A stretch of 64,000 nt of DNA from contig NZ_QMIG01000006.1 of the NCBI RefSeq assembly GCF_003287285.1, positions 1 to 64,000 on the forward strand, given 5' to 3'. How positions within the stretch are numbered: position 1 is the stretch's first letter; every line of letters begins with the position of its first letter. This document shows positions 19,947 through 62,937 of this stretch, piece after piece. The notes under the pieces were generated by a model that worked only from the letters and a program-made list of their open reading frames with translations, did not search any database and was not told the DNA's origin. The DNA comes from Phytoactinopolyspora halophila. Its GTDB lineage: Bacteria; Actinomycetota; Actinomycetes; Jiangellales; Jiangellaceae. A program made the position numbers and the translations under genes.

Positions 19947-20012
19947 GGGTGCGTGCCCGGGTGCCCGGAACGGCCCGCCAGGGGCGCATGCCCGGCACCC
20001 GGGCACGCACCC
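19947..20012. repeat. Perfect 19-bp inverted repeat
   Basis: GGGTGCGTGCCCGGGTGCC at 19947-19965 is exactly repeated in inverse orientation at 19994-20012, with a 28-base gap. It lies in the otherwise gene-free 19649-20137 interval, between the GntR gene and the VapB-type gene. No T-tract follows, so it is not a standard terminator. Confidence 0.7.
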
Positions 20013-29606: not shown

Positions 29607-29983
29607 GGGGATGCCAACCAGGCATCATTAGGATTTGAGTCGATTGGCCACGTCGATGATTAGCGCTTCATGAGCCACGTCGAAATCGACTTCATCGATC
29701 ACCGAGATCAGCCGATCCAAAACCGCTTCCATGGCCCGCCCTTTTCCGCGCTCAATCAATTTTAGTGAAACTTCCAGATGATCGGGCCAATCCTTCTAGG
29801 AAATATTCGACCGCGCGGACAAGCGCGGCCGGCGGCCCGAGACCCACGTAGGCTGTGTTGCCGATAGTCGAACGTTCCGGTTCCCCTCGTAGGGAAGTGT
29901 GAACGTTTCGCAGCGCGCAATGGAAGTCACCGATGCCCGACGCCGGTGGGTGACGGGGCATCCCCGTCACCCACCGGTCAGGA
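29607..29983 (-). other. Gene-poor stretch with possible gene remnant
   Basis: This 377-base interval has lower GC than its surroundings. On the minus strand one frame reads ...VRAVEYFLEG up to about 29795, while a frame shifted by one base continues as a plausible peptide (DHLEVSLKLIERGKGRAMEA ... IIDVANRLKS, stop near 29635). The pattern suggests a small decayed gene, but neither half belongs to a family I recognise. Confidence 0.3.
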
Positions 29984-47192: not shown

Positions 47193-47215
47193 CACTTGTC
47201 CCTTACTCCATCCTT

Positions 47216-47260
47216 CGTGCGTGCGCTGGTCAGCAGGCGATGCTGACCAGCGCACGCACG
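47216..47260. terminator. Perfect 20-bp stem between convergent genes
   Basis: CGTGCGTGCGCTGGTCAGCA at 47216-47235 and its exact complement at 47241-47260 enclose a 5-base loop. The hairpin ends three bases before the stop codon of the convergent acyl-CoA synthetase gene and probably ends transcription from both sides. Confidence 0.8.
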
Positions 47261-47263
47261 ATG

Positions 47264-51915: not shown

Positions 51916-53124
51916 TCACGCCCTCACCACGCGACCGGTCACGTCGCCGAAGTCAATTCGAGATCCGTCGGCACCCGGTGCCGTCGCCGTGATCCGCACC
52001 TGGTCGCCGTCCTGGAGGAATGCCCGCGTGCTCCCATCGGCCAGGGTGAGATGTTCGGCCCCGTTCCACGTCAGTTCGAGCAACGATCCTCGCTGCTGCT
52101 TCTCCGGACCCGATACCGTTCCGGACGCGTAGAGATCGCCGGTGCGTACCGACGCGCCGTTGACCGTCATGTGCGCGAGCATCTGGGCCGGCGACCAGTA
52201 CATCTCCCGGTACTGCGGGCGGGCGACGACGTCGCCGTTGAGTTCGAGCGCGAGATCGAGGTCGAGGTTCCACGCCTCGTGTTCGGTCAGATACCCCATG
52301 GGCTCGGGATCCTGCGGCGGCACCGGTGTCCGCGCGTCCTGCAACGCCTGCAGCGGCACGATCCACGGCGAGATGGACGTGGCGAACGATTTGCCGAGGA
52401 ACGGCCCGAGGGGCACGTACTCCCAGGCCTGAATGTCCCGGGCGGACCAGTCGTTGACCAAGCAGGCGCCGAACACGTGGCCGGCGAAGTCCGCGGTGGT
52501 GAGGGGCGTACCGAGCGTACTGGGAACGCCGACGACGAATCCGACCTCCACCTCGACGTCGAGTTTCGCCGAGGGACCGAACGACGGCGTGTCGTCGGAC
52601 GGCGCCTTGCGCTGCCCGGACGGGCGAACCACGGGGGTATCCGACACGACCACGGTGCCCGAGCGGCCGTGGTAGCCCACCGGAAGGTGTTTCCAGTTCG
52701 GCAGCAAGGGGGTGGCGTCCGGGCGGAATATCCGTCCGACATTGGTGGCATGGTGCTCGCTGGCGTAGAAGTCCACGTAGTCGGCGACCTCGATCGGCAG
52801 GTGCAGCGTGACCTCGTCGAGTGGATGAAGTGCCGAACCGAGAGCGTCGCGGTGTGCGGAGTCCGTGAGCAGCTCGACGATGCGGGTCCGAACGCTCGTC
52901 CACGCCGCCGGGCCCGTGGCCATGAAGGCGTTCAGCGATGGCCGGGCGAACACGTCGTTGTCGATCTCCGGCTGATCGGCGAACGCGGCGGCGAGATCCA
53001 GCACGTGATCGCCGATACGCACGCCCACGCGGGGCTCGGCGCCCGCGGGCGCGAACACCCCGTACGGCAGGTTCTGCAATCCGAACCCGGAACCCTCCGG
53101 TATGGGTACCCACGTCTCGTTCAC
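51916..53124 (-). CDS. fahA: Fumarylacetoacetase
   Basis: A 402-residue enzyme for the last step of tyrosine degradation, splitting fumarylacetoacetate to fumarate and acetoacetate. The N-terminal SH3-like domain starts WVPIPEGSGFGLQNLPYGVF. The catalytic region has DFYASEHHATNVGRIFR (metal Asp and catalytic His), the metal pair in VEVEVGFVVG and NDWSARDIQAWEYVPLGPFLGKSF. GTG start at 53124. A palindromic repeat lies immediately upstream at 53152-53222. It is separated by that repeat from the hypothetical gene and hmgA, which share its pathway. Confidence 0.94.
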   Translation of the reverse strand: MNETWVPIPEGSGFGLQNLPYGVFAPAGAEPRVGVRIGDHVLDLAAAFADQPEIDNDVFARPSLNAFMATGPAAWTSVRTRIVELLTDSAHRDALGSALHPLDEVTLHLPIEVADYVDFYASEHHATNVGRIFRPDATPLLPNWKHLPVGYHGRSGTVVVSDTPVVRPSGQRKAPSDDTPSFGPSAKLDVEVEVGFVVGVPSTLGTPLTTADFAGHVFGACLVNDWSARDIQAWEYVPLGPFLGKSFATSISPWIVPLQALQDARTPVPPQDPEPMGYLTEHEAWNLDLDLALELNGDVVARPQYREMYWSPAQMLAHMTVNGASVRTGDLYASGTVSGPEKQQRGSLLELTWNGAEHLTLADGSTRAFLQDGDQVRITATAPGADGSRIDFGDVTGRVVRA

Positions 53125-53151: not shown

Positions 53152-53222
53152 CTCCTTTCCCATGATCATGAACACTAGTCGGCTCATATCCTCGACTAGT
53201 GTTCATGATCATGGGAAAGGAG
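53152..53222. repeat. Palindromic repeat, copy A
   Basis: Perfect 30-bp inverted arms at 53152-53181 and 53193-53222 enclose 11 bases. The core CCCATGATCATGAACAC is shared with copy B at 61526-61606, while the outer flanks differ in sequence yet still pair within each copy. It separates fahA from the upstream hypothetical gene and reaches into the end of that gene's coding frame. Confidence 0.9.
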
Positions 53223-54086
53223 GGTGAGGTTGCGGGCCTCGGCCAGCGGTGTGCTCGTGCTGCACGAACCGTAACTGACCAGTATCGCCCGCGCCCGCTC
53301 GGCAGCCTCGTCATCCACGTCTTTCACCCGGCGGATCAGCTGGGACGCGTCGTCCATCCGCAGCGTCCGGGCGACGACGTCGGCGTCCGCTCCGAGCACG
53401 GCGTCGACAGTGGCCACGAGCACGTTCACGTAGCCGTGATGCACGAAGCCGGTGCTCGCGTCGGTGTGCCGGACCGCGTGGTGCAGTCCTGCCGTCGCCT
53501 TCACCATCACACCTGTACGTGCCGCCGCGACCAGGGCGAGGGCGAGCTGCTCCGGCGACGGGAACAGCTCAGCGCGGACGCCGCCACAGCGTAGCTTTAC
53601 CCCGACCGGCCGCCCCTGCGCTCCCGCCGCGATGGCCTCGACCAGGATCGGGACGTCGTTCCACGACACCGGCTCGACAAAGAGGGGAACCTCGTCCGCG
53701 ACCCCCGCCTCTGATACGGCAGTCAGCGCGGCGCCCAGCGCCGCACCGGGATCACCATGCCCGGTACGCGCCAGCGGGAACTCCACTCCAGCCAGCGCCA
53801 GCCGCTCATCTGCCGCGACCTGTGCGACGGCATCGGCGAGACCATCCGCACCCGAGTCCGCGATCAGGCCGACGTCGAAGTGATCGGTACCGGCCAGCGC
53901 TTCCCGCAGCTCGGTGATGCGCGAGACGGGGCACAGAAACCGATGGGTGAGAACGGGGCTGGCCGCGCCCAGATCGGCTCGATGGCGGGCGACGGCGTCG
54001 GGCATGTCCAGCGCCGTGGGCGGAAAGAGGCCGGCGTCGTCCACGAGCGCTCGCATCAGGCTTGAGGCGACCGGTGCCGGGCTCAT
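53196..54086 (-). CDS. Conserved hypothetical protein of the homogentisate locus
   Basis: A 296-residue protein I cannot assign to a named family. The sequence reads like an alpha/beta barrel: ALAGVEFPLAR, VPLFVEPVSW, PVGVKLRCGG and GVMVKATAGLHHAVRH could be successive strands with a lysine and histidines near their ends. The ATG overlaps the hmgA stop (ATGA), so it is translated with that gene. The final residues (LLSHDHEH) and the TAG stop are encoded by palindromic repeat copy A, so the original C-terminus has probably been replaced. A role in tyrosine catabolism is inferred from position only. Confidence 0.7.
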   Translation of the reverse strand: MSPAPVASSLMRALVDDAGLFPPTALDMPDAVARHRADLGAASPVLTHRFLCPVSRITELREALAGTDHFDVGLIADSGADGLADAVAQVAADERLALAGVEFPLARTGHGDPGAALGAALTAVSEAGVADEVPLFVEPVSWNDVPILVEAIAAGAQGRPVGVKLRCGGVRAELFPSPEQLALALVAAARTGVMVKATAGLHHAVRHTDASTGFVHHGYVNVLVATVDAVLGADADVVARTLRMDDASQLIRRVKDVDDEAAERARAILVSYGSCSTSTPLAEARNLTLLSHDHEH

Positions 54087-55288
54087 CCCTGGGCCCTCCG
54101 CGCCCACGTCCACGCATACTCCGGATCCTCGCACGCCAGGCCACCCTCGCCGAGCTGCAACGGGGCGAAGGTGTCTACCATGACGGCCAACTCGTCGAAG
54201 TACTCGACGCCGATACTGCGCTCGTAGGCACCCGGCTGCGGCCCGTGCGACCAGCCTCCCGGGTGCAGCGAGATAGAACCCTGGCCGATACCGGAACCCT
54301 TGCGGGCCTCGTAGTTGCCGCCGCAGTAGAACATGACCTCATCGGAGTCGACGTTCGAGTGGTAGTAAGGCACGGGGATGGACAGCGGGTGGTAATCCAC
54401 CTTCCTCGGCACGAAGTTGCAGATGACGAAGTTGTGGCCCTCGAAAGCCTGATGGACCGGCGGGGGCTGGTGAACCCGCCCGGTGATCGGTTCGAAATCG
54501 GAGACGTTGAACGTGAACGGATACAGGCACCCGTCCCAGCCGACGACATCGAACGGATGCTTCGAGTAGACGAATCGGGTGCCCACGAGACCCTGTGCAC
54601 CGCGATGCTTGACATACACCTCGACGTCGTCGCCATCGATCACGAGCGGTTCCGTCGGCCCGTGCAGGTCGCGCTCGCAGTACGGGGCGTGCTCTAGGAA
54701 CTGGCCGTAGCGGGACAGGTATCGCTTGGGCGGTGCGATGTGCGAGTTGGCCTCGATCACGTAGGCACGCAGTGGCTCGTCGCCGTGTGGGAGCCAGCGG
54801 TGCGTCGTCGCCCGCGGCACGATCACTTGGTCACCCTGCCGGACCGGGAGCACACCGAAGACCGTTTCGACGGTGCCGGAGCCGGATTCGATGTACACGC
54901 ACTCGTCGCCCACGGCATTGCGATACAGCGGCGACGTCTCGCCTGCAACGACGTAGGAGATACGCACGTCGGCATTACCGAGGACGAGCCTGCGGCCGGT
55001 GACGACGTCGATCGACTTCCACGCCATCTCCCCGGCATCCGCGAACAGATCGTGCAGCTTCAAGTGCCGGGGTTTGAGGGGGTGATTTGCCGTGAGCGAG
55101 AGATCGGGGAGCTCCCACGGCTGGGCATCGGCGATGGTCGACGGGATGGTGCGGTGATAGAGCAAGGACGAGTCGCTGGAGAACCCTTCCTCACCCATGA
55201 GTTCTTCGTAGTACAGGCCACCGTCTGGGCGGCGGTGTTGCGTGTGCCGTTTCGGTGGGACATCGCCCACGCATCGGTAATGCGCCAT
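54083..55288 (-). CDS. hmgA: Homogentisate 1,2-dioxygenase
   Basis: A 401-residue cupin-fold iron enzyme that opens the homogentisate ring to maleylacetoacetate. Characteristic segments are the YRCVGDVPPKRHTQHR start, QVIVPRATTHRW, the PFTFNVSDFEPITGRVHQPPPVHQAFEG block and the iron-site region PYYHSNVDSDEVMFY with the later SLHPGGWSHGPQPG histidines. It is first in the run with the hypothetical protein and fahA. A palindrome in the divergent promoter region and the facing IclR gene indicate specific regulation. Confidence 0.95.
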   Translation of the reverse strand: MAHYRCVGDVPPKRHTQHRRPDGGLYYEELMGEEGFSSDSSLLYHRTIPSTIADAQPWELPDLSLTANHPLKPRHLKLHDLFADAGEMAWKSIDVVTGRRLVLGNADVRISYVVAGETSPLYRNAVGDECVYIESGSGTVETVFGVLPVRQGDQVIVPRATTHRWLPHGDEPLRAYVIEANSHIAPPKRYLSRYGQFLEHAPYCERDLHGPTEPLVIDGDDVEVYVKHRGAQGLVGTRFVYSKHPFDVVGWDGCLYPFTFNVSDFEPITGRVHQPPPVHQAFEGHNFVICNFVPRKVDYHPLSIPVPYYHSNVDSDEVMFYCGGNYEARKGSGIGQGSISLHPGGWSHGPQPGAYERSIGVEYFDELAVMVDTFAPLQLGEGGLACEDPEYAWTWARRAQG

Positions 55289-61393: not shown

Positions 61394-61990
61394 TCAGATC
61401 TCCTTGACGTGTTCGAAGGGTTCGGTGCAGGAGCGACACCGGCGCAGTGCCTTGCACGCAGTCGCGCTGAACCGCGACACCTCCTCGGTGTCCGGCGATC
61501 CGCACTGGGGACAGCGCACAGCGCTCCCGCCCCCTCTCCCATGATCATGAACACTTTCCGACCACATAGGCCCGCTAGTGTTCATGATCATGGGAGAGGG
61601 GGCGGGTTCGAGGGTCAGGGGGACCGGACCTTGCTGCGGGCTCGGTGCGGCGCCGGGCGGTGCGATCCCGGCCTCCGCGAGCTTGCGTTTGCCCTCCTCG
61701 CTGATCCAGTCGGTACTCCACGGAGGATGCAACACGGTACGCACCTCGACGTCGTCGTATCCGGCTTCGTGCAAGGTGCGTACGAGGTCGTCGCGCATCG
61801 TGTCCATCGCGGGACACCCCGTGTAGGTGGGAGTGATCGACACGATGACCCGGCCGTCCACGACATCGACATCGCGCAGGACGCCGAGATCCGCGAGCGT
61901 GAGCATGGGCAGCTCCGGATCGGTGACGGTTTCCGCGGCGGCCCGCGCATCGGCGACGACGTCGTGGTGCCGAGTGCTCGTCATGCTCAC
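61394..61990 (-). CDS. paaD: PaaD with an in-frame palindromic insertion
   Basis: A 198-residue PaaD, an accessory protein thought to mature the epoxidase or its Fe-S partner. The N-terminal DUF59/MIP18 domain (about 12-110) includes VTDPELPMLTLADLGVLRDV and TPTYTGCPAMDTM. The C-terminal zinc-ribbon-like domain reads VRCPQCGSPDTEEVSRFS and KALRRCRSCTEPFEHVKEI. Between them, residues 129-155 (PAPSPMIMNTSG ... HDHGRGGG) come wholly from palindromic repeat copy B; typical PaaD proteins run directly from a PVPLTL-type linker into VRCPQCGS. The reading frame is kept and all metal-binding cysteines are intact, so the protein is probably functional. The start overlaps the paaC stop. Confidence 0.92.
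   Translation of the reverse strand: MSMTSTRHHDVVADARAAAETVTDPELPMLTLADLGVLRDVDVVDGRVIVSITPTYTGCPAMDTMRDDLVRTLHEAGYDDVEVRTVLHPPWSTDWISEEGKRKLAEAGIAPPGAAPSPQQGPVPLTLEPAPSPMIMNTSGPMWSESVHDHGRGGGSAVRCPQCGSPDTEEVSRFSATACKALRRCRSCTEPFEHVKEI
61526..61606. repeat. Palindromic repeat, copy B, inside paaD
   Basis: Perfect 30-bp arms (61526-61555 and 61577-61606) enclose 21 bases; the total is 81 bp, exactly 27 codons in phase with paaD. The core CCCATGATCATGAACAC is identical to that of copy A. The outer GC-rich flanks (CCCGCCCCCTCT) differ from copy A but pair perfectly here. Confidence 0.93.
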
Positions 61991-62937
61991 CACCGGCCCT
62001 CCGGGTGCGCCCGCGCCACGCTCTGCATCTCCGCCAGCAGGTAGCCCATGGCCTCGGTGTGCACGCCGTCGCGTCCGAGCTTGCCGGCCACTCCCGGGAT
62101 CGGTGCCACCTCGGGGCGCTCCAGGCTCGCCGCCTTGAGTACCTGGGCGAGGACGTCGTCGAACTCGGAACGCAGCGTGCCCGGATCGATCGCGACCGCA
62201 GGCGCCGTATCGTGATCGCCGCCACGAGCACCGTCGCCATTGCCCTCGGCTGCCTGGACGGCGAGGCGCTGCTCCACCGGGTGCGCGGTGAACAGCTCGT
62301 CGACGTAGGGCCAGACCGCCTCCAACGCGGCGCGCATCCGCCGGTGCGACTCGTCCGTGCCGTCTCCGAGCCGGACCGTCCACTGTGCGGCGTAGTCGCG
62401 GTGATACGTGATCTCCTTGACGCCCTTGGCCGCGATCGCCGCCAGGACGGGATCGCGGGAGACCCGCAGCCGGTCCAGCAGCGCGAGCCGCCACGTGGAG
62501 AAGACGAGCAGCCGGGTGACGAGCTCGGCGAAGTCGCCGTTCTCCAGCTCGACCAGGCGGACGTTGCGGAACTCGTGCTCGGGGCGGAAGAACGCGTAGT
62601 AGTCCTCCCCGTGACCACCGCCGTCGGCCGCTCCGGCCCGGGTCAACAGGAGGCGTGCCTGTCCGAGCAGGTCCAAAGCGATGTTGGCAACCGCGACTTC
62701 CTCTTCGAGCTCGGGCAGCCAGGTGCACCACTGCTGCAACCGGTGCGACATGATGAGAGCATCGTCGCCCAGCATCACGCAGTACGCCGCCAGGTCAGCG
62801 CCGTCCACACCGTCGGGCAGCGTCGTGTCGACACCGGAGAGCGGATCCTCGAACCCGGTGCCGAACGCCCACCGCGCATCGTCCTGACCTTCGGTCAGTG
62901 CCTCGTACGCGTTGTCGAAACCCATCGGCGACCTCAC
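61987..62937 (-). CDS. paaC: Phenylacetyl-CoA epoxidase structural subunit PaaC
   Basis: A 316-residue ferritin-like subunit that supports the catalytic PaaA within the epoxidase complex. Recognisable segments are YCVMLGDDALIMSHRLQQWC, EEEVAVANIALDLLGQARLL, YYAFFRPEHEFRNVRLVE and KEITYHRDYAAQWTVRLGDG. The GTG at 62937 overlaps the paaB stop (GTGA); an ATG at 62925 is an alternative. An insertion rich in Gly, Asp and Ala (about 237-250) lies in a loop. Confidence 0.93.
   Translation of the reverse strand: MRSPMGFDNAYEALTEGQDDARWAFGTGFEDPLSGVDTTLPDGVDGADLAAYCVMLGDDALIMSHRLQQWCTWLPELEEEVAVANIALDLLGQARLLLTRAGAADGGGHGEDYYAFFRPEHEFRNVRLVELENGDFAELVTRLLVFSTWRLALLDRLRVSRDPVLAAIAAKGVKEITYHRDYAAQWTVRLGDGTDESHRRMRAALEAVWPYVDELFTAHPVEQRLAVQAAEGNGDGARGGDHDTAPAVAIDPGTLRSEFDDVLAQVLKAASLERPEVAPIPGVAGKLGRDGVHTEAMGYLLAEMQSVARAHPEGRW

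Follow-up and report, generated by a model that had tools for sequence, protein, structure and literature searches.

Repeats of the REP type have been described mainly in phyla other than the Actinomycetota, with RAYT transposases as the usual explanation for them. REPs (GTAG/CGTC, BIMEs) are palindromes of 20–40 nt with a stem of 5–13 bp, which end on one side in an unpaired tag (GTAG or CGTC), have an associated RAYT (Y1), reach dozens to hundreds of copies per genome and fall into stem subfamilies that differ by complementary changes (PMC3733652, PMC1525189). They are found in convergent and tandem gaps near stop codons and gene 3′ ends, in some cases supplying the stop codon or lying within a gene (PMC3733652), and serve as targets of insertion sequences (IS; PMC1525189); work cited in PMC12306157 attributes lowered expression in E. 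coli to REPs lying at most 16 nt from a stop codon. Further systems that bear comparison are bidirectional intrinsic terminators, with a strong hairpin between convergent genes, a stem base that is C-rich on the 5′ and G-rich on the 3′ side and a U-tract; DNA-uptake-sequence terminators, whose core word is also abundant singly; Rickettsia palindromic elements (RPE), found mainly in frame within coding sequence; and MITEs. Here we describe a palindromic element that resembles each of these in part. A search of the open-access literature revealed no description of this element family, and the one report pairing Phytoactinopolyspora with 'palindromic' concerned CRISPR repeats only.

Two copies of the element in a 64-kb window

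The DNA analysed is a 64-kb stretch (the window) that contains two long hairpins, copies A and B, neither of which is assigned to a strand. Copy B (53152–53222) consists of 30-nt arms (53152–53181/53193–53222) that are 100% complementary and enclose an 11-nt loop, with its conserved 49-nt core, TGATCATGAAC...GTTCATGATCA, at 53163–53211; copy A (61526–61606) also has 30-nt arms (61526–61555/61577–61606) with 100% complementarity, a 21-nt loop and a conserved 49-nt core at 61542–61590. Both were identified through inverted-repeat listing and folding. The preliminary description had assigned perfect 30-bp arms with loops of 21 and 11 nt to A and B, which the inverted-repeat listing reproduces exactly, and it was equally correct that the outer arms are unlike between the copies, yet paired inside each of them. 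RNA folding of either strand gave about −61 kcal/mol for copy B and −70 to −77 kcal/mol for copy A, compared to means of −23 to −31 kcal/mol for shuffled sequences (z = −12 to −14 for A and B on both strands). The sequence common to both copies, CCCATGATCATGAACAC, has four exact occurrences in the window and five when up to three mismatches are allowed, where 0.13 are expected.

A short conserved word occurring as inverted pairs at gene ends could also represent a DNA-uptake-type signal in inverted arrangement, with a second role as a 3′ hairpin, as in Neisseria and Haemophilus. This reading was rejected because, in contrast to the uptake systems, single half-sites are nearly absent: 148 of 151 half-sites in 524 kb of Phytoactinopolyspora sequence are paired, as are all four in the window. 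We regard it as extremely improbable.

Copy B is located between the fumarylacetoacetase gene downstream of it (51916–53124, minus strand) and a minus-strand gene without NCBIfam/Pfam match (gene X, 53196–54113), the frame of which enters copy B and ends in its inner arm (...SHDHEH, stop). In the gene X orthologue of a relative (G021), the element likewise lies just 3′ of the stop codon. Gene X is itself conserved, with a homogentisate dioxygenase-like gene and the fumarylacetoacetase gene as neighbours.

Copy A lies inside paaD (61394–61993, minus strand), where it is read in frame (PSPMIMNTSGPMWSESVHDHGRGGG) between the FeS-assembly and zinc-ribbon domains and lengthens PaaD by ~24 residues when compared to short-linker orthologues. 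It is missing from all five Phytoactinopolyspora PaaD orthologues, two of which have long, unrelated linkers; relative to orthologous PaaD sequences, copy A is identified as an in-frame insertion in paaD. As a palindromic insert translated in frame within a conserved protein, copy A resembles the RPE, from which the element is set apart (by description, not by sequence) in that just three of 104 copies, copy A among them, are intragenic.

Elsewhere in the window, perfect hairpins of 21 bp (47215–47261) and 16 bp (29943–29977) with short loops lie between convergent genes and are likely ordinary bidirectional terminators, and a GC-rich, near-perfect palindrome with arms of ~20 bp (19947–20012) is unrelated to the element. 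An Rfam scan of the window returned two tRNAs and nothing else.

Family size and distribution

The pattern TGATCATGAAC-N27/28-GTTCATGATCA revealed 133 copies with both ends exact in the 5.04-Mb, 77-contig genome to which the window belongs (the host genome), a number that is a lower bound for the family, being restricted to exact-ended copies; a control using the reversed pattern gave 0 matches in the same genome. Among the matches listed, the length is 49 or 50 nt, except for a few copies of 47–48 nt, and the copies analysed in detail are a sample of 104 to 120 rather than all. An RNA-model search of the host genome afforded at least 150 scored candidates, which counts both strands and is not a copy number. 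In the related genus g6, four of five genomes contain 35, 107, 93 and 46 copies, with Phytoactinopolyspora halotolerans, limicola and endophytica among the genomes that have the element; the copy numbers of the host and these four relatives (133 and 35–107) lie within the range of REPs. Within the same family, genus g3 has one copy, and the 12 genomes of genus g5, which is probably Jiangella, have zero. Over 394 sampled genomes of the class, the element was detected in six, every one from the Jiangellaceae, and in none from outside this family; the viral contigs searched also gave no element. As far as sampled, the element is thus a dispersed palindromic repeat confined to the Jiangellaceae, and this confinement to one actinobacterial family and its near-strict length distinguish it from REPs.

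Conservation and pairing of the inner stem

The core is a nearly fixed, near-perfect palindrome of 49/50 nt with conserved TGATCATGAAC ends and a stem of ~22 bp to which the outer arms are added, placing it outside the size range of REPs. When 42 copies were aligned, their ends proved symmetric (mostly CCCATGATC), with no conserved GTAG or CGTC tag. The inner arms are genome-specific and covary, only the terminal 11 bases being fixed by the search pattern in the covariation test: in the 50-nt class, 10 of 11 varying pairs change on both sides, with a covariation score of 0.219 compared to 0.105 for shuffled alignments, and the effect is weaker in the 49-nt class (0.109 compared to 0.073); 0 of 500 shuffles scored as high in either class. 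The compensatory change surmised in the preliminary description was therefore recovered in the inner stem of both length classes, above all shuffles. In the 49-nt class of Phytoactinopolyspora, one inner position pairs at chance level (paired and unpaired equally often), and there is also one conserved mismatch: the palindrome is hence not strictly enforced everywhere, which weakens the case for simple selection for an RNA hairpin.

Outer arms

Directly outside the core, CCCA/TGGG and CCGC/GCGG occur as alternatives that tend to match within a copy, and the outer flanks (~20 nt) are rich in C 5′ of the core and rich in G 3′ of it. In a survey of 104 copies (30 from the host genome and 74 from Phytoactinopolyspora), perfect outer arms of at least 12 bases were found in 7 of the 30 host copies and 10 of the 74 Phytoactinopolyspora copies, where between-copy pairings predict 0.07 and 0.26, respectively. 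These long perfect arms (12–28 bp) are copy-specific and present in a minority of copies, whilst most copies pair over approximately the first 6 bases and are near chance beyond base 6. Copies A and B belong to this real but minority class with long outer arms. The preliminary description had spoken of compensating flanks and had held that unpaired flanks in other copies would speak against this. Compensating flanks are real and far above chance in the minority; most copies, however, have unpaired outer flanks, and outer pairing is thus not a generally maintained feature, although where present it is not due to chance.

Identity of the arms could also result from hairpin-templated repair or replication template switching rather than from selection. 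The 50-nt class contains perfect palindromes with idiosyncratic inner arms, which is consistent with such a process, as is the minority of copies with perfect, copy-specific outer arms; in the Phytoactinopolyspora sample, all long-armed copies are perfectly paired inside. However, long-armed copies of the host genome are no better paired inside than the others (7.71 compared to 7.65 of 11), and conserved internal mismatches persist, so that we consider this origin possible but doubtful. We also regard as quite unlikely that the element inserts into existing C-rich/G-rich hairpins, with the outer arms belonging to the target. Outer arms that vary from copy to copy and, in the host genome, show no relation to inner pairing would suit this explanation, but no empty TGATCA-centred palindromes were present in the sequence examined, the paaD linker is too short for the arms in three of five Phytoactinopolyspora orthologues and orthologous nnrD sites have no matching hairpin.

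Placement relative to genes

Using gene calls from a simple codon-bias gene finder, 33 copies were placed in convergent, 44 in tandem and 7 in divergent gaps, where intergenic length would predict 16, 39 and 29: the element is enriched in convergent gaps and avoids divergent ones. Of the gene 3′ ends that face the element, 45 coincide exactly with its TGA and 39 lie 0–30 nt before it; in genes reading into the element, this TGA is in frame 53 times, whereas the other two frames account for 14 and 7 cases (53 compared to 14, p about 2e-6). Copies are also present within probable operons, between hisA and hisF and between a purine nucleoside phosphorylase-like gene and the gene that follows it (these names, and that of the nucleotidyltransferase-like gene below, come from sequence resemblance and not from a family search). 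Mostly extragenic placement in convergent and tandem gaps near gene 3′ ends, supply of stop codons, occasional intragenic copies and stem subfamilies with complementary changes are all shared with REPs, and the earlier view of a dispersed palindromic family with compensatory inner-stem changes and REP-like placement is supported.

The preliminary description had also suggested a family of bidirectional transcription terminators, in which the hairpin would be selected at gene 3′ ends. The element does resemble such terminators in its enrichment between convergent genes, in a GC-rich stem base with C on the 5′ and G on the 3′ side and in stop codons that abut the hairpin, and compensatory evolution is known for terminators (PMC5381666). 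Unlike bidirectional intrinsic terminators, however, it has no T-tract on either side: at least five T in the 8 nt downstream were found for 4 of 208 sides, compared to 5 in shuffled sequence. More than half of the placed copies are located between co-oriented genes, probable operons included, copy A lies inside paaD and upstream of paaE, and the conserved primary sequence, an 11-mer, is unexplained by selection for stem strength alone. Owing to the missing T-tract and to the copies in probable operons and in paaD, the canonical intrinsic form is unsupported, and we regard a terminator family as possible but doubtful.

Transposase search and probable interrupted copies

In order to be a REP/RAYT system proper, the element would have to be mobilised by a Y1 tyrosine transposase, as the preliminary description had raised. 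Copy number, palindromy, distribution and use as an IS target match REPs, but Y1/RAYT (PF01797) is absent from the host genome and from all 22 family genomes, whilst control searches were positive in E. coli and others; moreover, the element has no GTAG/CGTC tag and is symmetric and longer. Mobilisation by RAYT is accordingly not supported and appears very improbable.

At four contig ends of the host genome (C10:97364, C14:67, C30:68 and C48:68; L218–L221), element half-sites run into shared IS-like ends. There are two such ends, CGGGCTCAAGCGGTGCTTGCAACG... and GCAGGTTCAATCGGTGCTTGCAATGAG..., and the ends of the IS resemble CTCAAGCGGTGCTTGCAA. As C30 and C48 seem to hold one half each of a single element, the IS was probably inserted in the centre of the hairpin; judging from these junctions, element copies appear to be interrupted at their centre by an IS, and such use as an IS target is also found for REPs. 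Seven matches to the IS110-type transposase (PF02371) are present in the genome, and none of the loci inspected carried the IS ends seen in the elements.

Shared sites and turnover

The neighbouring gene was traced in relatives for approximately 18 host sites, four of which are occupied likewise in at least one Phytoactinopolyspora genome: 3′ of the purine nucleoside phosphorylase-like gene, between hisA and hisF, at gene X (copy B) and at a nucleotidyltransferase-like gene. In most comparisons, the interior of the element at these shared sites is nearer to copies from the same genome than to the orthologous copy, and hence suggests that copies evolve in concert or that preferred sites have received insertions repeatedly, two processes that are indistinguishable here. 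Occupancy differs between species: in 100 kb of synteny between two Phytoactinopolyspora genomes (G018 and G019), a counterpart in G018 was found for two of the eight G019 elements, with a C-G to G-C double change in one of these pairs, and turnover of the element therefore appears substantial. Three of the six unmatched G019 sites were not alignable on both sides.

The element resembles MITEs in being short, dispersed, self-complementary and non-autonomous; neither a pair of terminal repeat and target duplication nor a cognate transposase was found for it, and empty sites are too diverged. At the sites compared, neither a duplication of the target nor a clean empty site could be recognised, orthologous sites being too diverged, and this divergence also applies to the orthologues of the paaD, DAHP synthase and M16 peptidase sites, which were compared for a native flank copied into the other outer arm.

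A second family is present in P. limicola: perfect palindromes of 58–68 nt with TGATCAT ends and a different interior (TTGGCTTTTGACTACCGGATCC...; L067:4049-4116, L110:6435-6502, L238:308-371 and L255:1399-1456). At the hisA-hisF site, P. limicola has such a TGATCAT-ended palindrome where relatives have the main element. Further long hairpin repeats of P. limicola and g5 genomes, each present at two loci, are unrelated to the main element (L048:3110-3177 and L298:681-750; L072:1-55 and L240:1885-1959; L123:3282-3353 and L126:1-58).

Discussion

We consider it probable that the element represents a REP-like, palindromic and dispersed repeat of the Jiangellaceae that would act as a 3′-end RNA hairpin and spread as non-autonomous DNA through an enzyme other than the Y1/RAYT transposase. 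It is best filed as a tag-less, RAYT-less variant of the REP type, since it behaves in a REP-like manner but differs in tag, in size and in the absence of RAYT. Transcripts of either strand would fold into a hairpin of 22–40 bp at the 3′ end of the mRNA or between cistrons, where the hairpin may act as a cap that shields the upstream message from 3′ exonucleases and may delay ribosomes at the neighbouring stop codon, as described for REPs; the element would survive where the harm that it causes is small. A more far-reaching alternative, which seems rather unlikely, is an undescribed mobile palindrome system of Actinomycetota that is independent of Y1/RAYT and directed to stop codons, that on insertion gains, or itself produces, inverted outer arms peculiar to each copy, and that is homogenised per genome to the point where shared ancestral sites, too, have the interior typical of their genome.

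For the REP-like repeat that we favour, its existence as a large, structurally conserved family in an actinobacterial family where no Y1 transposase is detectable suggests that the spread and homogenisation of such repeats can also be achieved in other ways. With genomes containing from 0 to 133 copies and shared sites exhibiting different interiors, movement, target choice and arm homogenisation become directly testable in this family.
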